From Calditrichota bacterium (lineage in GTDB: Bacteria > Calditrichota > Calditrichia > RBG-13-44-9 > J042), in assembly GCA_013150955.1 (NCBI GenBank), contig JAADJD010000015.1:1-64000 (forward strand): DNA of 64,000 nt. The letters are read 5' to 3'. Shown here piece by piece: positions 22,117 to 62,605 of this stretch. The notes under the pieces were generated by a model, which worked only from the letters and a program-made list of their open reading frames with translations, searched no databases and was not told the DNA's origin. The translations under genes and the position numbers were made by a program. How positions within the stretch are numbered: position 1 is the first letter of the stretch; each line of letters opens with the position of its first letter.

Positions 22117-22458
22117 AGCCCAGATTTTGCATTAACCAATACTGATACGAAGCCAAACGAATAAGAAAGACTAAAAGCCATTTGATGATATCGGGATGAA
22201 AATGGGTGTCGGGATTTATTCGCTATTTTTTGGATATTTCCTGGATGAATTCGCTTAATTCGTGGCTTAATCCCAGATTAAGCAATAGCCTACGAATGAC
22301 ACGAATTAACAACAAATAAAACCAATAAAATCCATTGGATTGTGTCTGGATGAAAATGTGTTCCATAGTTTATTCGCGTTTTTATCGACATTTTTTGGTT
22401 TCATTCGCGTGATTCGCGATTTAATGCAAAATTTGGCTTAATTTATAATTTGGGATAA
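22117..22458 (+). repeat. Dispersed element, two tandem copies
   Basis: A diverged copy (about 22117-22269, missing its right tip) is followed directly by a better-preserved 'CCTACGAATGACACG' subfamily copy (about 22270-22440). A further right tip, AATTTGGGATAA, ends at 22458, only 16 nt before the lpxD start codon. Any lpxD promoter would therefore lie inside or overlap the element. The stretch 21964-22116 shows nothing recognisable. Confidence 0.82.
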
Positions 22459-45956: not shown

Positions 45957-47128
45957 TTGTGCGATAGCAGAAATTGGGTCAGTTCCTGGTAGACTTCCCA
46001 CAGGGGACGTTTACTGATCCGGGCAATCCGCTTGCACTCTTCGAATTCCGGCACCAATCGTTCCCTGCCGTTAATGATGACTTTTTTCACCTGAATGTTT
46101 CCCCAGGGAGAGTGCAAAGTTAACACTTCGCGGGGCAGTTTTTCCCGGTATACCGGAAAATAGCGAAAACCGATCGTGCTGGTTTCAGTAAACAGGATAT
46201 CCCTCACCTCCGGCAGCAAAGCCGTATCGCAAATGATGGACACCAGCACTCCGGGACGTCCCTTTTTCATGATGTTGGGGTAAAACGATACGTCCTGCAC
46301 CCCACACTCAAAGAGTCGTTCCATCAGGTAAGGATAAACTTCGGGATTCAGGTCGTCGATGTTGGTTTCGATCTGAAGGGCGGTTTCGGTCTGGCTGGCC
46401 ATTTGAAACTCTCCCAGCCAGACGCGCAAAAAATTGGGTAACTCGAGAAGGTCGCGGGAACCCAGGCCATATCCGATTTGCTGAATCTGGAAAGATCGGC
46501 CGGTGGGAAGAGGCCCCTGCGAAATGTGTGCGATTAACGCGGCACCCGTCGGGGTGACCAGCTCGGCTTCCACATCCAGGTAATGGAGCGTTTGGTTTTT
46601 TAACAGGGCAAGGGTTGCCGGTGCCGGTACCGGTAGTTTCCCATGGGCCGCATCCACATATCCCCGGCTCATGGGAATGGGTGAGTGGTAAACCGATTGG
46701 GGCTGTAAATATTCCAGACAAATGAAGGTGCTGACAATGTCCACGATCGAATCCACTGCACCGACCTCATGGAAATGCACCCGATCGGGGGTCGTTGCAT
46801 GGATTTGTGCCTCGGCCTGAGCCAGACGCTCAAATACCTGGATGGCGTTGGTCGTCACGTATTCGCTTAATGAGCTATTTACCAGCAGTTGGCGAATGTC
46901 ATCCAGGTGCCGATGGGGTTCTTCTTTCCGGGTGTCCGTGTGGACAATGAATCGTTTTCCCGAAATGTGATGCCGGGTCTCCTCTCTTAATTCCAGCCGG
47001 TAGCCGTCCAGCGGAAGTTTATTTAACGCCTTTTCCAATTCGGAAAAGGGAACCAGACCATCCAGCAAGCTACCGACCAGCATGTCCCCACTAATTCCGC
47101 CAATGCATTCGATATATAAAAATTTCAT
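45953..47128 (-). CDS. larC: Nickel-insertion protein LarC (NPN cofactor synthesis)
   Basis: A 391-residue protein starting MKFLYIECIGGISGDMLVGSL. It carries the LarC landmarks HFHEVGAVDSIVDIVS near 120 and TPTGAALIAHIS near 200, and a C-terminal part with ETNIDDLNPEVYPYLME near 265. LarC inserts nickel into the pincer nucleotide cofactor made with LarB and LarE. In Lactobacillus plantarum LarC arises by programmed frameshift from two frames; here it is one continuous frame. The ATG overlaps the upstream nucleotidase stop, and its stop overlaps rlmB, both as ATGA. larE is 19 kb away. Confidence 0.9.
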   Translation of the reverse strand: MKFLYIECIGGISGDMLVGSLLDGLVPFSELEKALNKLPLDGYRLELREETRHHISGKRFIVHTDTRKEEPHRHLDDIRQLLVNSSLSEYVTTNAIQVFERLAQAEAQIHATTPDRVHFHEVGAVDSIVDIVSTFICLEYLQPQSVYHSPIPMSRGYVDAAHGKLPVPAPATLALLKNQTLHYLDVEAELVTPTGAALIAHISQGPLPTGRSFQIQQIGYGLGSRDLLELPNFLRVWLGEFQMASQTETALQIETNIDDLNPEVYPYLMERLFECGVQDVSFYPNIMKKGRPGVLVSIICDTALLPEVRDILFTETSTIGFRYFPVYREKLPREVLTLHSPWGNIQVKKVIINGRERLVPEFEECKRIARISKRPLWEVYQELTQFLLSHK

Positions 47129-48897
47129 GGATTCCAATCCGCTTGTTGGTTCATGATTTTTTGGATGATCGATAATCCAGAACCGGTTGCCCCGGATTCC
47201 GAATGATCTCCGGAAAGGAAGCGCATTTTCCACATCCAGGCTTTCGGCTGCTCGAACTGACGAATCCAGTCTTGATCGGGCTGATAATGATTGTCTCGTT
47301 TCCAGCGTCCATCCGTCTGGATGTGCAGCGGGGAGTGTTTGCGAATGTATTCGATCACCGCTTCCCTTAGCAGTATCCCCGTGTATGCCACCTCTTCCGG
47401 CGGGACGGTCTTGAGCAATGTCAATCCGGAATTCCCTTCCATTAAATAATCAGTGGTGGCCACCCGGTACGTCCGTTTGGGTTCCAGCGGCTTTCCGCCA
47501 ATTTCCATGTAAACCACCCGTTGACCGTCAGGACGCTGGCGATTGAAAATGACTTTTCCACCGGAAATGGCCAGTCCTCTCCCCCCGCCTTTAAGTTTCT
47601 GCTCCAGAATATCCTTGATGAATTTCCCGGTTGCATGGAAGGTAACAATTTGATTGCCAAACGGCAGAACACGGAAGACATCCGCACGGGTGATGGGGCC
47701 TTTTTTCAGGTCGGCTCGAATGCCTCCAAAATTGGTGAACGCGAAATCGGCGTTGACCTGCAACCGCATGGCATCGGTGATCAGATTGTTCAATGGCGAT
47801 TCCCCAATGCTGGATCGGGTCAGGGTGGTGCGTGCTTCGCCAATGACTTCTTCAAAACCCTTTTCGTAAATGGCCTGCTGCTGTTTGATGAAACGATAGA
47901 TTACACTATCGGGCCAGAATTCGTCTTCCTGCAACAGCAACAGGGTGCTGGCATCTGCGGGATAGTCAAAGGTGTAAATCGTGCGGGTGGTCATTTCCAC
48001 ATACAGATTGATCCATCCCAGATTGCTCATGTTCCCGTAATTCTGGATGCAGATGGTGTGATTTACCGGATCAACCCAGGGTTCGGCATACCCACGGTGC
48101 AGATGTCCGCCCAACAGTAAATCAATACCCTTTACAAAATGAGCCACTTCCATGGCATTGACGTAGTGCTTTTTCAACACACTTTCCAGAGTGGTTTGTT
48201 TTAATTGAAGATACCCCTGGCGGGGGTCGTATGGCAATCCCAGATGAACCAGCGCAATAACCAGATCGGCCCCATTTTCCCGGAGTTGATCCACGGCCTT
48301 TTGCAGGGAGGGAATCTCGGGGCGGAATTCCAATCCCTTGATGTTTTCCGGGAAACTCATGTAACGGGTTCCCACGGTGGTTGCACCGGTAATGCCGATT
48401 TTTAACCCATTGCGTTCGATGATGATCCAGGGTTTAACCCATTTCCAGGGGGTGCCCGTTTCCGTATCGAAGATGTTACAGGATACCCATGCGAATTGCG
48501 AGGCTTTGATCAGTTCAATTAAATTGTCTTTTCCCAGGTCAAAATCGTGGTTGCCGGGGACACAGGCATCGTAACCCACGCGATTCATATACTCCACAAC
48601 GGCTTTCCCTTTGGAAAGCGTGCCCACCAGGGTACCCTGGAAAATGTCGCCCGCATCGATGGTGATGACCGAAAACCCCTGCTCCCTGGCCTGGGCTTTC
48701 ACCTTTTTGATGATCGCTGCTGCAGAGGCTCCACCTCCCAGCACCGGTGGAAATTCCGGGTTGAGAAATTCCGCCTTTTTTTCAACGATGCCACCGTGAA
48801 TGTCGTTGGTAAAAAACACCGTGATGCGATGGAGTTGCGGTGACCGGGCCAGAAGCAGCGGCCCAAAAAGTAGAATGAACAGGAAGGTGCGTGTCAT
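47125..48897 (-). CDS. Exported 5'-nucleotidase/2',3'-cyclic phosphodiesterase family protein
   Basis: A 590-residue protein with a signal peptide (MTRTFLFILLFGPLLLARS). A calcineurin-like metal domain follows, with FFTNDIHGG near 27, DAGDIFQGT near 70, PGNHDFDLG near 103 and LGGHLHRGY near 245. The C-terminal 5'-nucleotidase domain (about 350-530) contains ESPLNNLITDAMR and NFGGIRADLKKGPIT. It is likely periplasmic and would release nucleosides from nucleotides. Its ATG at 48897 follows GGGAG; the reading frame is open back to 49083, but that part is a duplicated repeat block and does not look coding. Operon nucleotidase-larC-rlmB. Confidence 0.9.
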   Translation of the reverse strand: MTRTFLFILLFGPLLLARSPQLHRITVFFTNDIHGGIVEKKAEFLNPEFPPVLGGGASAAAIIKKVKAQAREQGFSVITIDAGDIFQGTLVGTLSKGKAVVEYMNRVGYDACVPGNHDFDLGKDNLIELIKASQFAWVSCNIFDTETGTPWKWVKPWIIIERNGLKIGITGATTVGTRYMSFPENIKGLEFRPEIPSLQKAVDQLRENGADLVIALVHLGLPYDPRQGYLQLKQTTLESVLKKHYVNAMEVAHFVKGIDLLLGGHLHRGYAEPWVDPVNHTICIQNYGNMSNLGWINLYVEMTTRTIYTFDYPADASTLLLLQEDEFWPDSVIYRFIKQQQAIYEKGFEEVIGEARTTLTRSSIGESPLNNLITDAMRLQVNADFAFTNFGGIRADLKKGPITRADVFRVLPFGNQIVTFHATGKFIKDILEQKLKGGGRGLAISGGKVIFNRQRPDGQRVVYMEIGGKPLEPKRTYRVATTDYLMEGNSGLTLLKTVPPEEVAYTGILLREAVIEYIRKHSPLHIQTDGRWKRDNHYQPDQDWIRQFEQPKAWMWKMRFLSGDHSESGATGSGLSIIQKIMNQQADWNP

Positions 48898-48989
48898 GAA
48901 TCGCTCCCAAATCTTTCGGAAAAATATACCTGTTGGGAGTGAGTGAATCAAGATTTTTACAGATTGGATTAGTGCCCGAATCTCTGACA

Positions 48990-49168
48990 CCGATATCCCC
49001 TGCACTGCGGTGGGCTGGATTTTATCGAGCATCCGGGATCTACCCTTACCTTTAATAGATTGGATTGCTTCACCACCACTCATACCAGCTGTTTACTGCC
49101 CACTGCCAACTGCTTACTGCTTACTGTCAACTGCTTACTGCTTACTGCCAACTGCTCACTGCACACTG
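48990..49168 (+). repeat. Direct repeat A with heptamer array
   Basis: Bases about 48991-49113 are nearly identical (about three mismatches) to 50752-50874. The tail is a tandem array of ACTGCNN heptamers (49095-49168, about 10.5 units). With repeat B it brackets the ATPase gene. The rest of 48898-49261 holds a 35-nt perfect hairpin region at 49226-49260 and no gene. Confidence 0.85.
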
Positions 49169-49225
49169 TTTTTTAAGAGTGCAATTGTGAATTCAGGAAG
49201 AAAAAAATCTTCCCAGAAAATATTC

Positions 49226-49260
49226 CTTGCAAATTTAAATCCTTTCTTTAAATTTGCAAG
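49226..49260 (+). promoter_or_regulatory. Perfect inverted repeat immediately before the ATPase start
   Basis: Fourteen-base arms CTTGCAAATTTAAA (49226-49239) and TTTAAATTTGCAAG (49247-49260) with a 7-nt loop end one base before the ATG at 49262, and no ribosome site lies outside the arms. In RNA it would hide the start region; as DNA it could be an operator. Confidence 0.6.
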
Positions 49261-49261
49261 C

Positions 49262-50446
49262 ATGATTAGGCGCACGTTGGAAAATCGGGTTGTTGAATCT
49301 CTGCAACGATTTCCGATTGTGGGGATCATCGGGGCGCGACAGGTAGGGAAGACCACACTGGCTAAAAAGCTGCAGACCAGAGTGCCCAGAAGCATTTATC
49401 TGGATCTGGAACTCCCATCGGATTTGATCAAATTACAGGAACCTGAACTTTATCTGAGACAACACGCTGATAAATTGGTTATCCTGGATGAAATTCAAAG
49501 AATGCCTGAGCTTTTTTCTTTATTACGTTCATTGGTAGATCAGGATAGACGTCCAGGCCGTTTTTTGCTCCTGGGTTCTTCGTCTCCGAAAGTGATAAAG
49601 GACGCCGCTGAAAGCCTGGCCGGACGCATTGTTTATCACGAACTATCCCCTTTTCTACTGGAGGAGATTGCCAGTGGCGAACCTCAAAAAGACTTTCAAA
49701 AATTGTGGCTGCGGGGCGGTTTTCCGGAAAGTTTTTTATCCCCCGATGAAACTACCAGTTTTCAATGGCGAGAGGCATTTATCCGTTCCTTCTTGGAGCG
49801 GGATTTACCTCTAATGGGAATCCGGATTCCGCCTTTGCGCATTCATCGTTTCTGGACTATGTTAGCCCACTATCACGGGCAACTTTTTAATGCATCTCAA
49901 CTTTCGAATGCCCTGGATCTGTCATCCGTAACCGTAAAGAATTATCTGGAAATTTTGCATCAAGCGTTCATCGTTCGGGTGTTGTTGCCATTTCATGCTA
50001 ATGTAAAAAAGCGGTTGGTAAAAACACCGAAAATGTATTTTCGGGATACGGGTTTACTCCATTCATTATTAAATATCCGATCTTTTGAAGAATTACAATC
50101 CCACCCAATTGTAGGACACTCGTTTGAGGGTTTTGTTTTGGAACAGGTGATTCACAGCATACCAGATTTTTTTGATGCTTTTTTTTACAGAACCGCGGCA
50201 GGAGCCGAGCTGGATTTGCTCCTGATTATGGGGAATCGGTGTCGGGTCGGGATAGAAGTAAAATATTCGCTGGCGCCCAGGATGAGCAAAAGTTTTCGGA
50301 ATGCATTTGAGGACGTCCAGGTAAAATTGGGCCTTGTGGTTTACCCGGGGGAAGAAATATTCCCACTCGACAATGCGGTTTTTGCGTATCCAGTAACCCG
50401 ATTGCCCCATCTCGTTGATTTTTTTCATGAACAAGGGGTGTTGTAA
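49262..50446 (+). CDS. AAA-type ATPase with DUF4143 domain
   Basis: A 394-residue protein. Walker A is [10 protein letters not shown] near 25, Walker [11 protein letters not shown] near 80, and a sensor-type [10 protein letters not shown] lies near 108. The C-terminal DUF4143 domain has a winged-helix-like part ([19 protein letters not shown]) and a nuclease-like fold stretch ([14 protein letters not shown] and GIEVKYS). Members of this large family are common in mobile or defence-prone regions, but their role is poorly known. It lies between two direct repeats, and its start abuts a perfect hairpin. Base composition is more AT-rich than the neighbouring nucleotidase. The frame is open upstream to 49010 through repeat DNA, which I exclude. 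Confidence 0.85.
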
Positions 50447-50531
50447 CCGGACGCTTCAGAGTCGATCAACCCGCAAAGTGGGGCCTGTTTTCATCATCGG
50501 GGTTTTATTCAGTGCCAGAAAGGCGCAGGCA

Positions 50532-50703
50532 TAAACCTAAATAATGCACTAAACCGCGAATCACGCAAATGAAACCGAAAAATATCTACAAAATCGCAAA
50601 TAAACCCTGGAACACATTTTCACACAGACACAATCCAGTGTATTTTATTAGCTTTATTTGTGTGAATTCGTGTAATTCGTAGGCTATTGCATAATCTGGG
50701 ATA
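50532..50703 (-). repeat. Dispersed element, full copy, inside the direct-repeat bracket
   Basis: A complete minus-orientation copy of the GCCTACGAATTACACG subfamily runs from AAACCTAAATAATGCACT to ATAATCTGGGAT. It separates the ATPase gene from repeat B. Confidence 0.85.
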
Positions 50704-50751
50704 AAAGATATACTTCCCCATCAACTGGATTTTTACCAAACTCCCCGACTT

Positions 50752-50897
50752 CGATATCCCCTACACCGCGGTGGGCTGGATTTTATCGAGCATCCGGGAT
50801 CTATCCTTACCTTTAATAGATTGGATTGCTTCACCACCACTCATACCAGCTGTTTACTGCCCACTGCCAACTGCCAACTGCATACTGCCCACTGCAA
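50752..50897 (+). repeat. Direct repeat B with heptamer array
   Basis: This is the second copy of the repeat at 48990-49168, with only six ACTGCNN heptamers (50856-50897) against about 10.5 in copy A. The remaining gap to the next gene (50898-51012) shows nothing further. Confidence 0.85.
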
Positions 50898-51012
50898 AAC
50901 CACCAGGTTGTTTAATAAATAGTTTATGATTAATTTTTCAAGAAACATGTCTGCCAGATTTCCGTGATATGAAGAAATGCGCTCTGTAAATAAAAAGGCG
51001 TGGAGGGCTTTT

Positions 51013-51561
51013 ATGGACAATCGAGCCAAATCTTTTATCTGGGGTGTGCTATTCCTTTTAGCAGGCATTTTATTTTTATTGCGGAACCTTGACATCATTT
51101 ACTTTGACATGGAGGATACCTGGCCGGTGTTTTTACTGATTCCCGGGATCCTGTTCTGGTATTTCTGGTACATCGATCGCTCGAATTATCGCTTGCTGAT
51201 GCCGGGCACCATCCTGATCGTTTACGCCCTTTATTTCTTCTTTGAACAACAGATTATGTACCGCATGGTGGATCGGTTGTGGCCTGTCTTTATTCTGGGA
51301 CCCGGCCTGGGTTTCTGGGCCATGTATTTTCTGGGTTCCCGTCAAACGCGTTATTTTCGTAGCGGCGCCATTCTGGTGGGTTTCAGCGTATTGTTTTTCA
51401 TTTTGTCTCTGGATGAGCGATTTTTCCTCCCGCTGTTATTGATTGGCATAGGGGTTTATTTAATGATGCGCGAAAAGTCAGGAAAGTCAACCGCGTCGGA
51501 AGGGCCGGTTACACCAACCGGGAATCCACCGGCATCGACGCATCCGAAAGGAGACGAGTAA
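51013..51561 (+). CDS. Small polytopic membrane protein (DUF5668/LiaI-LiaF-TM-like)
   Basis: A 182-residue protein with about six to seven hydrophobic helices (SFIWGVLFLLAGILFLLRNL at the start, then WPVFLLIPGILFWYFW and repeats of the same WPVFILGPGLGFW pattern). A polar, proline-rich tail follows. The repeated hairpin pattern is like that of LiaF/DUF5668 membrane proteins in stress-response systems. The ATG at 51013 has TGGAGGG seven bases upstream; an ORF start at 50977 is less likely. Function unknown. Confidence 0.7.
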   Translation: MDNRAKSFIWGVLFLLAGILFLLRNLDIIYFDMEDTWPVFLLIPGILFWYFWYIDRSNYRLLMPGTILIVYALYFFFEQQIMYRMVDRLWPVFILGPGLGFWAMYFLGSRQTRYFRSGAILVGFSVLFFILSLDERFFLPLLLIGIGVYLMMREKSGKSTASEGPVTPTGNPPASTHPKGDE

Positions 51562-51678
51562 TTTGTCGGTGCCGATGGCAACGACGGGTTCCGGTGGAAA
51601 TTGGCGATGGGGTTCATTCCACCGGGAACCTGCCTCTTGCCCTGAAACGCCGTCGGCAAAACTGGCATGGAAAAATGA

Positions 51679-52034
51679 TTTATCCCAAATAATGCGTTAC
51701 ACCACGAATCGCGCGAATGAATTCGAAAAAAATCAACCCAAATAAAGCGTTAAACCACGAATCACACGAATGAAACCAAAAAATATCTACAAAATCGCGA
51801 ATAAACCCTTGAACACATTTTCATCCAGACACAATTCAATGTATTTTATTGGTTTTATTTGTGTTAATTCGTGTCATTCGTAGGCTATTGCTTAATCTGG
51901 GCGTAGGCTATTGCTTAATCTGGGATCAACAAAATAGTGAATATATCCAGGAAAACATTTTCATTCAGATATCATCCAGTGTATTTTTATTGGTGATTAT
52001 TCGTGTCATTCGTAGGCGAATGCATAATCTGGTA
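51679..52034 (-). repeat. Dispersed element cluster with a 23-bp tandem duplication
   Basis: In minus orientation: a right-end fragment (51679-51733), a full copy (about 51734-51901), then an exact second copy of its last 23 bp (51879-51901 repeated at 51902-51924). A left half follows (about 51925-52034). It fills most of the gap between the membrane protein and the esterase; 51562-51678 shows nothing else. Confidence 0.82.
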
Positions 52035-52072
52035 TTAATGAAAAACAGGGAAAAGGCCAACAGAGGAACCAT

Positions 52073-52708
52073 ATGCGGATGATCTATTTACATGGTTTTG
52101 CTTCCGGTCCCGGCTCCACGAAAGGCCAGTATTTCCTGGAGCGGTTGGCAGCCGCTGGCATTCAGCTGGAGATCCCCGATCTCACCGGCGGCGATTTTGA
52201 GCACACCACCATCACCCGCCAGCTGGATGCTGTCCAGCAGCTGCTGCAGTCGTGTGAAGAAGACGTCTGTTTAATCGGTTCCAGTCTGGGAGGCTGGTTA
52301 GCCACCCTGATTGCCGAAGAATTCTCCTGTGTGACGCGCATGGTTTTAATAGCCCCGGCATTTCGTTTCGTCAGCCGACAGTCCCGCATTTTTGGAGAGG
52401 CCGCATTGGCAGAATGGAAGCGTCGCGGGTATTTGCCCGTGTATCACTATGGGACCCGCTCCACCCGACAATTACATTACCATTTTCTGGAAGATGCCCG
52501 GAAATATGAATCGATCGTTCCTCGCCGCAACATCCCCACCCTGGTTTTTCACGGCATTTATGATGAATCGGTACCCTATTCGCTTAGCGTTGATTATCTG
52601 AAAACCAATCCACAGGCCCGGATCGTGCTGCTGGCATCCGACCACGGGATGACCGATCAGCTGGAGGTGATGTGGGAGATGATGGTCGCTTTTCTGAACC
52701 TTCGATAA
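52073..52708 (+). CDS. YqiA/YcfP-type alpha/beta-hydrolase (esterase)
   Basis: A 211-residue protein with MIYLHGFASGPGSTKGQYFL at the start (oxyanion region), the nucleophile elbow GSSLGGWLA near 82, a late Asp in FHGIYDESVPY near 165 and His in SDHGMTDQ near 192. This fits the YqiA/UPF0227 esterase group. Cytosolic; substrate unknown. AGAGGAACC lies before the ATG. Its TAA stop is fused to the start of a dispersed repeat fragment. Confidence 0.83.
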   Translation: MRMIYLHGFASGPGSTKGQYFLERLAAAGIQLEIPDLTGGDFEHTTITRQLDAVQQLLQSCEEDVCLIGSSLGGWLATLIAEEFSCVTRMVLIAPAFRFVSRQSRIFGEAALAEWKRRGYLPVYHYGTRSTRQLHYHFLEDARKYESIVPRRNIPTLVFHGIYDESVPYSLSVDYLKTNPQARIVLLASDHGMTDQLEVMWEMMVAFLNLR

Positions 52709-54955: not shown

Positions 54956-55266
54956 AAACCCGGATTTCGCAATCGCTGTGTATTACACGAGTTCACACGA
55001 GAAATAATGGGATGAAAATGGGGTCCGGTGTTTACTCACTTTTTTGTTGATATTTTTGGAATAAGTGCTTGTGATTTACGGTTTTTCATGCTTAAATCCA
55101 AATAATGCATTAAACCGCGAATCACACGAATGAAATCACAAAATATCTATAAAATCGCGGATAAACCATAAAACACATTTTCATTCAGATATCACCCAAT
55201 GGATTTTATTATTTTTATTCGTCTTAATTCGTGTAATTCGTAGGCGATTGCATAATATGGGTTAAA
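54956..55266. repeat. Dispersed element, inverted pair
   Basis: A strongly diverged plus-orientation copy (54956-55093) is followed by a well-preserved minus-orientation copy (55094-55266, ending ATAATATGGGTTAA). It sits between the divergently transcribed synthetase and arsC-like genes. Just after it, ATTGAAAACCATAA is duplicated in tandem (55265-55292) before the arsC ribosome site. The stretch 54790-54955 shows nothing else. Confidence 0.78.
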
Positions 55267-55307
55267 ATTGAAAACCATAAATTGAAAACCATAAGGAGGG
55301 ATGATAC

Positions 55308-62434: not shown

Positions 62435-62605
62435 AGACCCAGATTATGCATTAGCCTACGAATTACACGAATGAACACAAATAAAACCAATAAAATGCAT
62501 TGGATTGTGTATGGATGAAAATGTGGTCCAGAGTTTATTGACGATTTTGTAGATATTTTTTGGTTTCATTCGCGTGATTCGTGGTTTAACGCATTATTTG
62601 AGTTA
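62435..62605 (+). repeat. Dispersed element, full copy
   Basis: A well-preserved GCCTACGAATTACACG-subfamily copy from GACCCAGATTATGCATTAG to GCATTATTTGAGTTAA. Its last bases include the TAA stop of the convergent downstream gene (read on the minus strand). The stretch 62310-62434 shows nothing else. Confidence 0.85.

Follow-up and report, generated by a model that had tools for sequence, protein, structure and literature searches.

A DUF4143-type ATPase gene lies between direct repeats that look like the scar of a gene gain in a Calditrichota bacterium

Analysis of a 64,000-nucleotide stretch of a Calditrichota genome (hereafter the window) revealed a single gene for a DUF4143-type ATPase standing between two direct copies of a 170-bp noncoding sequence, at a site that is empty in two relatives. 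On balance we favour the reading that an accessory single-gene unit was gained here and that its integration duplicated adjoining sequence, leaving the two repeat copies. Since related genes in many bacteria have similar flanking duplications, the repeat pair looks like the scar of a gene gain rather than a self-moving cassette.

The original prediction had described positions 48991-49113 and 50752-50874 as nearly identical, in the same orientation, and flanking a DUF4143-type ATPase gene together with one dispersed element. Pairwise alignment and Pfam bore this out, as the two cores mismatch at only 3 of 123 positions (49002, 49006 and 49043), and the likeness extends to longer copies, R1 (48965-49134, plus strand) and R2 (50726-50895, plus strand), which align without gaps over 170 bp at 89.4% identity (BLAST E about 7e-62) with a spacing of 1,761 bp. 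Upstream of 48965 identity between the copies drops to chance. Divergence within them is uneven: 10 of the 27 positions in 48965-48991 mismatch and most of the remaining differences lie in the terminal 7-base repeats, leaving the core 98% identical against 63% for the left arm, a clustering that was equalled in none of 20,000 random placements. Both copies are intergenic and lie upstream of gene starts. The inserted stretch reads, in order, R1, the ATPase gene (49262-50446, plus strand), a decayed hairpin-type repeat unit that follows directly on the ATPase stop codon (50447-50530, plus strand; 76% identity along all of its 84 bp with repeat units at C11 of this genome, E 6e-11), a copy of an AT-rich, high-copy dispersed element (50531-50711, plus strand) and R2. 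Arrays of a 7-base motif, (ACTGCNN)n, stand at the end of R1 (49095-49171, plus strand) and of R2 (50856-50897, plus strand).

We compared the site with that of two relatives. In the other genome of the genus (G001), the SpoU, LarC, nucleotidase, LiaF-like, UPF0227 and acyl-CoA-synthetase-like genes follow one another in the same order, and the gap of about 200 bp between the nucleotidase and LiaF-like genes holds neither an ATPase nor a repeat. DNA homology to this genome stops at 48965/48966 and picks up again at 50929-51010; by this break, and with a genome of the same family (G003) as outgroup, the segment missing from the G001 site spans 48966-50928, about 1.96 kb here against about 79 bp there. 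The left neighbour is a 5'-nucleotidase/UshA-like gene (47125-48897, minus strand; Pfam, 82-83% identity to its G001 orthologue). Its true start is at 48897, the ATG from which the orthologue matches, and the upstream extension of its frame, the first 62 of 652 codons, is false, as had been supposed. The right neighbour encodes a LiaI-LiaF-like membrane protein (50977-51561, plus strand; Pfam, with orthologues in G001 and G003). In G003 the UPF0227 and LiaF-like genes lie directly beside LarC and SpoU, with an empty gap of 205 bp between the LiaF-like gene and LarC, and the site carries neither the ATPase nor the repeat. Because both relatives are without the segment, a gain of about 1.96 kb in this lineage is the simpler reading. 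In G003 the nucleotidase gene does not stand between LarC and its LiaF-like neighbour either, and for this reason genes may have arrived at this junction on more than one occasion.

The gene product, a protein of 394 amino acids, contains AAA_14 (Pfam, 3e-27) followed by DUF4143 (7e-43), the domain order of the PDC-S01 family, to which PADLOC matched it over its full length (E 5e-93). Its Walker A (G24-T32) and Walker B (D76/E77) motifs were recognised in the sequence, and G24, K30, T32, D76, E77 and R122 are invariant in an alignment of 25 sequences. The AlphaFold2 model is confident (pLDDT 92) and a fold search with it recovered the AAA fold, the best match being the archaeal ATPase 2qen (Z 17.1, rmsd 3.0 over 250 residues), with another archaeal ATPase, 2fna, at Z 15.9 and rmsd 3.2 over 250 residues. 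In the C-terminal domain, alignment and model place a conserved E316-x-D318 and E332-x-K334 on or beside strands 316-323 and 327-333, which in the model belong to a helix-strand-strand-strand-helix-strand run. By residue placement this domain, examined within the full-length protein, resembles PD-(D/E)XK nucleases and is a putative nuclease domain; the matches of the fold search, which cover residues 1-300 only, include no PD-(D/E)XK nuclease chains, and a search of solved structures by sequence gave no match. The nuclease-like domain agrees with the published description, in which PDC-S01 is an ATPase fused to the PD-(D/E)XK superfamily and the fourth most common putative defence in prokaryotes (PMC12988326). 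The window protein is like the published PDC-S01 (COG1373, AAA_14 plus DUF4143) in its full-length match and its conserved ATPase and PD-(D/E)XK-type motif residues, whereas the locus differs in its flanking direct repeats, which the passages of that description considered here do not mention. Given the invariant ATPase motifs and a confident model with AAA and PD-(D/E)XK-like domains, the gene looks intact. PDC-S01 is a widespread defence candidate, unvalidated as a family, and from family membership the role of the protein is probably nucleic-acid targeting defence.

The family is patchy and moves horizontally. The nearest relatives that we found share 43-55% identity with it and belong to Nitrospirota, Desulfobacterota, Bacteroidota, Proteobacteria, Acidobacteriota and others; this genome has seven DUF4143 genes while G001 has none, and COG1373 is named among genes transferred between gut genera (PMC10782964).

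We propose that a PDC-S01/DUF4143 gene entered between the divergent nucleotidase and LiaF-like genes in this lineage, and that the event would have left two direct copies of the 170-bp noncoding stretch, one on each side of the gene. We infer that integration was additive, for example when acquired DNA with both the gene and a target-like piece recombined by one crossover, or alternatively through recombination after a local tandem duplication, with the piece ending up on both sides. Subsequent recombination between R1 and R2 could delete the 1.76-kb unit, the gene having no moving machinery of its own. This proposal is supported by the conserved gene order around an ATPase-free and repeat-free site in G001 and G003, by an excess of flank repeats at DUF4143 genes and by duplications of gene 3' ends at other loci (L331, L333, L315, L223, L270 and L272). 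R1 directly adjoins the left homology to G001 and the right homology starts within 34 bp of the end of R2, the layout that would follow if a single native copy had been doubled around a newcomer. Against the proposal stand three observations: neither arm can be clearly recognised at the empty site, where R2 resembles G001 weakly; the uneven divergence of the R1 and R2 arms is unexplained by a single duplication alone; and the repeat of the window does not correspond to the 3' end of a gene. No single copy of the repeat is recognisable at the G001 site. In an anchored alignment to the G001 intergenic sequence the left arm of R2 gave p 0.009, one of four comparisons, with R1 at p 0.30, and an unanchored test of R2 gave p 0.078; the likeness of the R2 left arm is thus a weak hint that the repeat may be native. 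Since this hint is weak and comes from one of four tests, we place the additive gain only a little above even and leave some weight with its rivals.

The first of these takes the repeats as recombination sites, the unit being moved by a site-specific recombinase acting in trans in the manner of an integron cassette or a gene-3'-end island. The geometry of one gene with direct repeats on both sides fits such a mobile cassette, as do the gene-3'-end duplications at other accessory genes. However, a search of the 4.07-Mb genome, a draft of 66 contigs, for further copies recovered R1 and R2 and nothing above chance elsewhere; 60 related genomes gave only short chance-level matches, phages and plasmids gave none, and one exact 20-base core used as query had no match in 84,980 species genomes (GTDB) or in viral contigs. 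Moreover, there is no transposase, integrase or other recombinase within the unit and no transposase ORF in 48500-51600, the repeat folds no better than shuffled sequences, and the flank repeats at other DUF4143 loci mostly differ in sequence. With neither a transposase or integrase inside nor further repeat copies, a self-moving cassette is unsupported, and we regard movement in trans as very unlikely. The earlier view of a cassette or recent duplication around a mobile-type gene thus stands in part: the insertion relative to two genomes, the patchy family and the enrichment of flank repeats agree with it, while a strict mobile cassette does not fit two copies and no recombinase, and 'recent' is doubtful because the copies are only 89% alike overall.

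Attachment-type sites of integron cassettes (attC-like) are common to many cassettes, unlike the window repeat with its two copies, and a composite transposon or IS would have a transposase, whereas the repeat here is noncoding and confined to a single locus. Gene-3'-end islands (attL/attR) resemble the locus in holding an accessory gene between direct repeats, and related loci show an intact and an orphan 3' end, but here there is no integrase and the repeat is intergenic. Usual att cores are, moreover, shorter than the 65-273 bp of the repeats at these loci. Merodiploids that arise during transformation by unequal recombination also have added DNA bordered by direct repeats, with duplications of about 100-900 kb (PMC3784515), in contrast to a unit of only 1.76 kb that is fixed in the genome. 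Rfam families gave no match in 48850-52100 at E up to 1. A 32-bp stretch matching an arsenate reductase gene of another genome (G027, E 2e-4) raised the candidate of an ArsC relic as the origin of the repeat, which we rejected as chance because ArsC protein and DNA profiles gave E values of only 0.3-1.4 on the repeat.

The repeat could also predate or postdate the gene, having arisen by tandem duplication at the site (replication slippage, or unequal crossing-over involving the 7-base arrays) with no link to the gene gain. The arrays end both copies and could seed unequal crossing-over, and the contrast between a well-conserved core and a diverged left arm would fit gene conversion that acted on the core later. 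However, a second ATPase or a remnant of one would be expected outside the unit and none was seen, and both relatives are without the repeat as well as without the gene. We consider this quite unlikely.

Chance co-location, in which two independent insertions, or ends, of dispersed noncoding repeats happen to lie around the ATPase, is a somewhat better candidate, though still an unlikely one. The genome is rich in dispersed repeats, the 7-base arrays among them, and 14-19 ordinary ORFs, nearly all in this genome, also lie between repeats. The repeat proper, however, has no third copy in the genome and is therefore not a dispersed family. In sampled regions from six genomes of the class, we compared the 1 kb to the left of each gene with the 1 kb to its right, for DUF4143 genes and for every other ORF, counting direct repeats that reached 60 bp in length and 75% identity. 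Flank repeats accompanied 11 of 34 DUF4143 genes (counting the window gene with its true start; otherwise 10 of 34) against 19 of 892 other ORFs (p 1e-9), and where both flanks had at least 300 bp of noncoding sequence the counts were 10/16 and 14/102 (p 7e-5), so that the excess at DUF4143 genes holds against control ORFs with comparable lengths of noncoding flank. At independent loci from other phyla (80 loci), 6/65 DUF4143 genes and 3/290 controls had such repeats (p 0.0016). Because the control regions were hand-picked and the ORFs called simply, all these figures are indicative. PIN-toxin genes carry flank repeats as well (3 of 28), and the difference between DUF4143 and PIN genes is p 0.04 in the six genomes and p 0.31 once the independent loci are added to them. 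The excess is thus clear against ordinary genes and only marginal over accessory genes in general, and its specificity to DUF4143 is not supported.

What the flank repeats are at other loci bears on the favoured additive gain. At L331 a copy of the final 273 bp of a helicase-like gene, with its stop codon, stands beyond the ATPase; at three further DUF4143 loci (L333, L315 and L223) the repeat is the 3' end of the downstream gene, and at two PIN-toxin loci (L270 and L272), as well as at a control gene in L329, that of the upstream gene. Such loci keep the neighbouring gene whole on one flank and carry an orphan copy of its end on the opposite flank, with repeats of 65-273 bp. One repeat copy supplies the 3' end of an adjacent gene at L331, L333, L223, L270 and L272; in the window neither copy does so, both lying 5' of gene starts. 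An intact gene with an orphan 3' end is the footprint of additive integration, through a recombinase or a single homologous crossover, and since no recombinase or integrase was in view beside the lone accessory genes of L270, L272, L331, L333, L223 and L329, we infer that a single homologous crossover is favoured at the gene-3'-end loci. A bolder extension, which we hold to be improbable, would make DUF4143/PDC-S01 genes minimal one-gene mobile units whose insertion would as a rule copy 65-270 bp of the adjoining sequence, in many cases a gene 3' end, with their own nuclease helping integration or the upkeep of repeat arrays. An occupied site, an empty sister site and a family-level excess of duplications together offer an entry point for asking how lone genes enter chromosomes without an integrase, and whether lone accessory genes arrive by additive recombination is a question that can be put to any genome collection. 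The entry route of such genes matters all the more given the rank reported for PDC-S01 among putative defence genes (PMC12988326).

Local repeat density at DUF4143 loci is four to five times background. Other flank repeats are hairpin-rich units that do not code for protein. In one genome (G017) the DUF4143 genes of two loci (L197 and L199), which lie 850 kb from each other, have tandem arrays of a 272-bp hairpin-rich unit to either side, with 17-18 copies at the two loci and none in 640 kb of background. Units of the present genome (those of L194 and L195) come back at DUF4143 loci and turned up a single time in 393 kb of background. Hairpins of the Acido-Lenti-1 type (RF01687) are present within the repeats of three other DUF4143 loci, and parts of the 272-bp unit match this RNA. 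A link of these hairpins to DUF4143 was rejected as too weak to claim, because a model built from the hairpins gave clusters in 3 of 29 DUF4143 regions against 2 of 86 background regions; it gave no clusters in the window.

The dispersed element beside R2 is about 180 bp long and AT-rich, with imperfectly complementary ends. Its matching pieces number 18 in the window and 75 in a further 360 kb of this genome; it stands at about 15 further places in the window (for example 51732-51901, 62438-62599, 22267-22442 and 55087-55267) and has no copy in 12 kb of G001 around the same site. The ACTGCNN arrays, too, are dispersed, with 164 matches in the genome at no more than one mismatch against none for the reversed pattern; they are absent from the same-genus genome and abundant in some distant ones, such as G086. 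TAACTGA heptamer arrays dispersed in Beggiatoaceae, Cyanobacteria and Bacteroidetes (PMC4679880) are similar in being intergenic, with a 7-base period, in containing ACTG and in their patchy distribution over phyla. The arrays of the window differ from these in their motif, ACTGCNN, with two variable bases, and elsewhere in this genome (for example at L096, L103, L106 and L110) such arrays usually come after the hairpin GCRGGCRTAAAGCCYGCGGCTACC.
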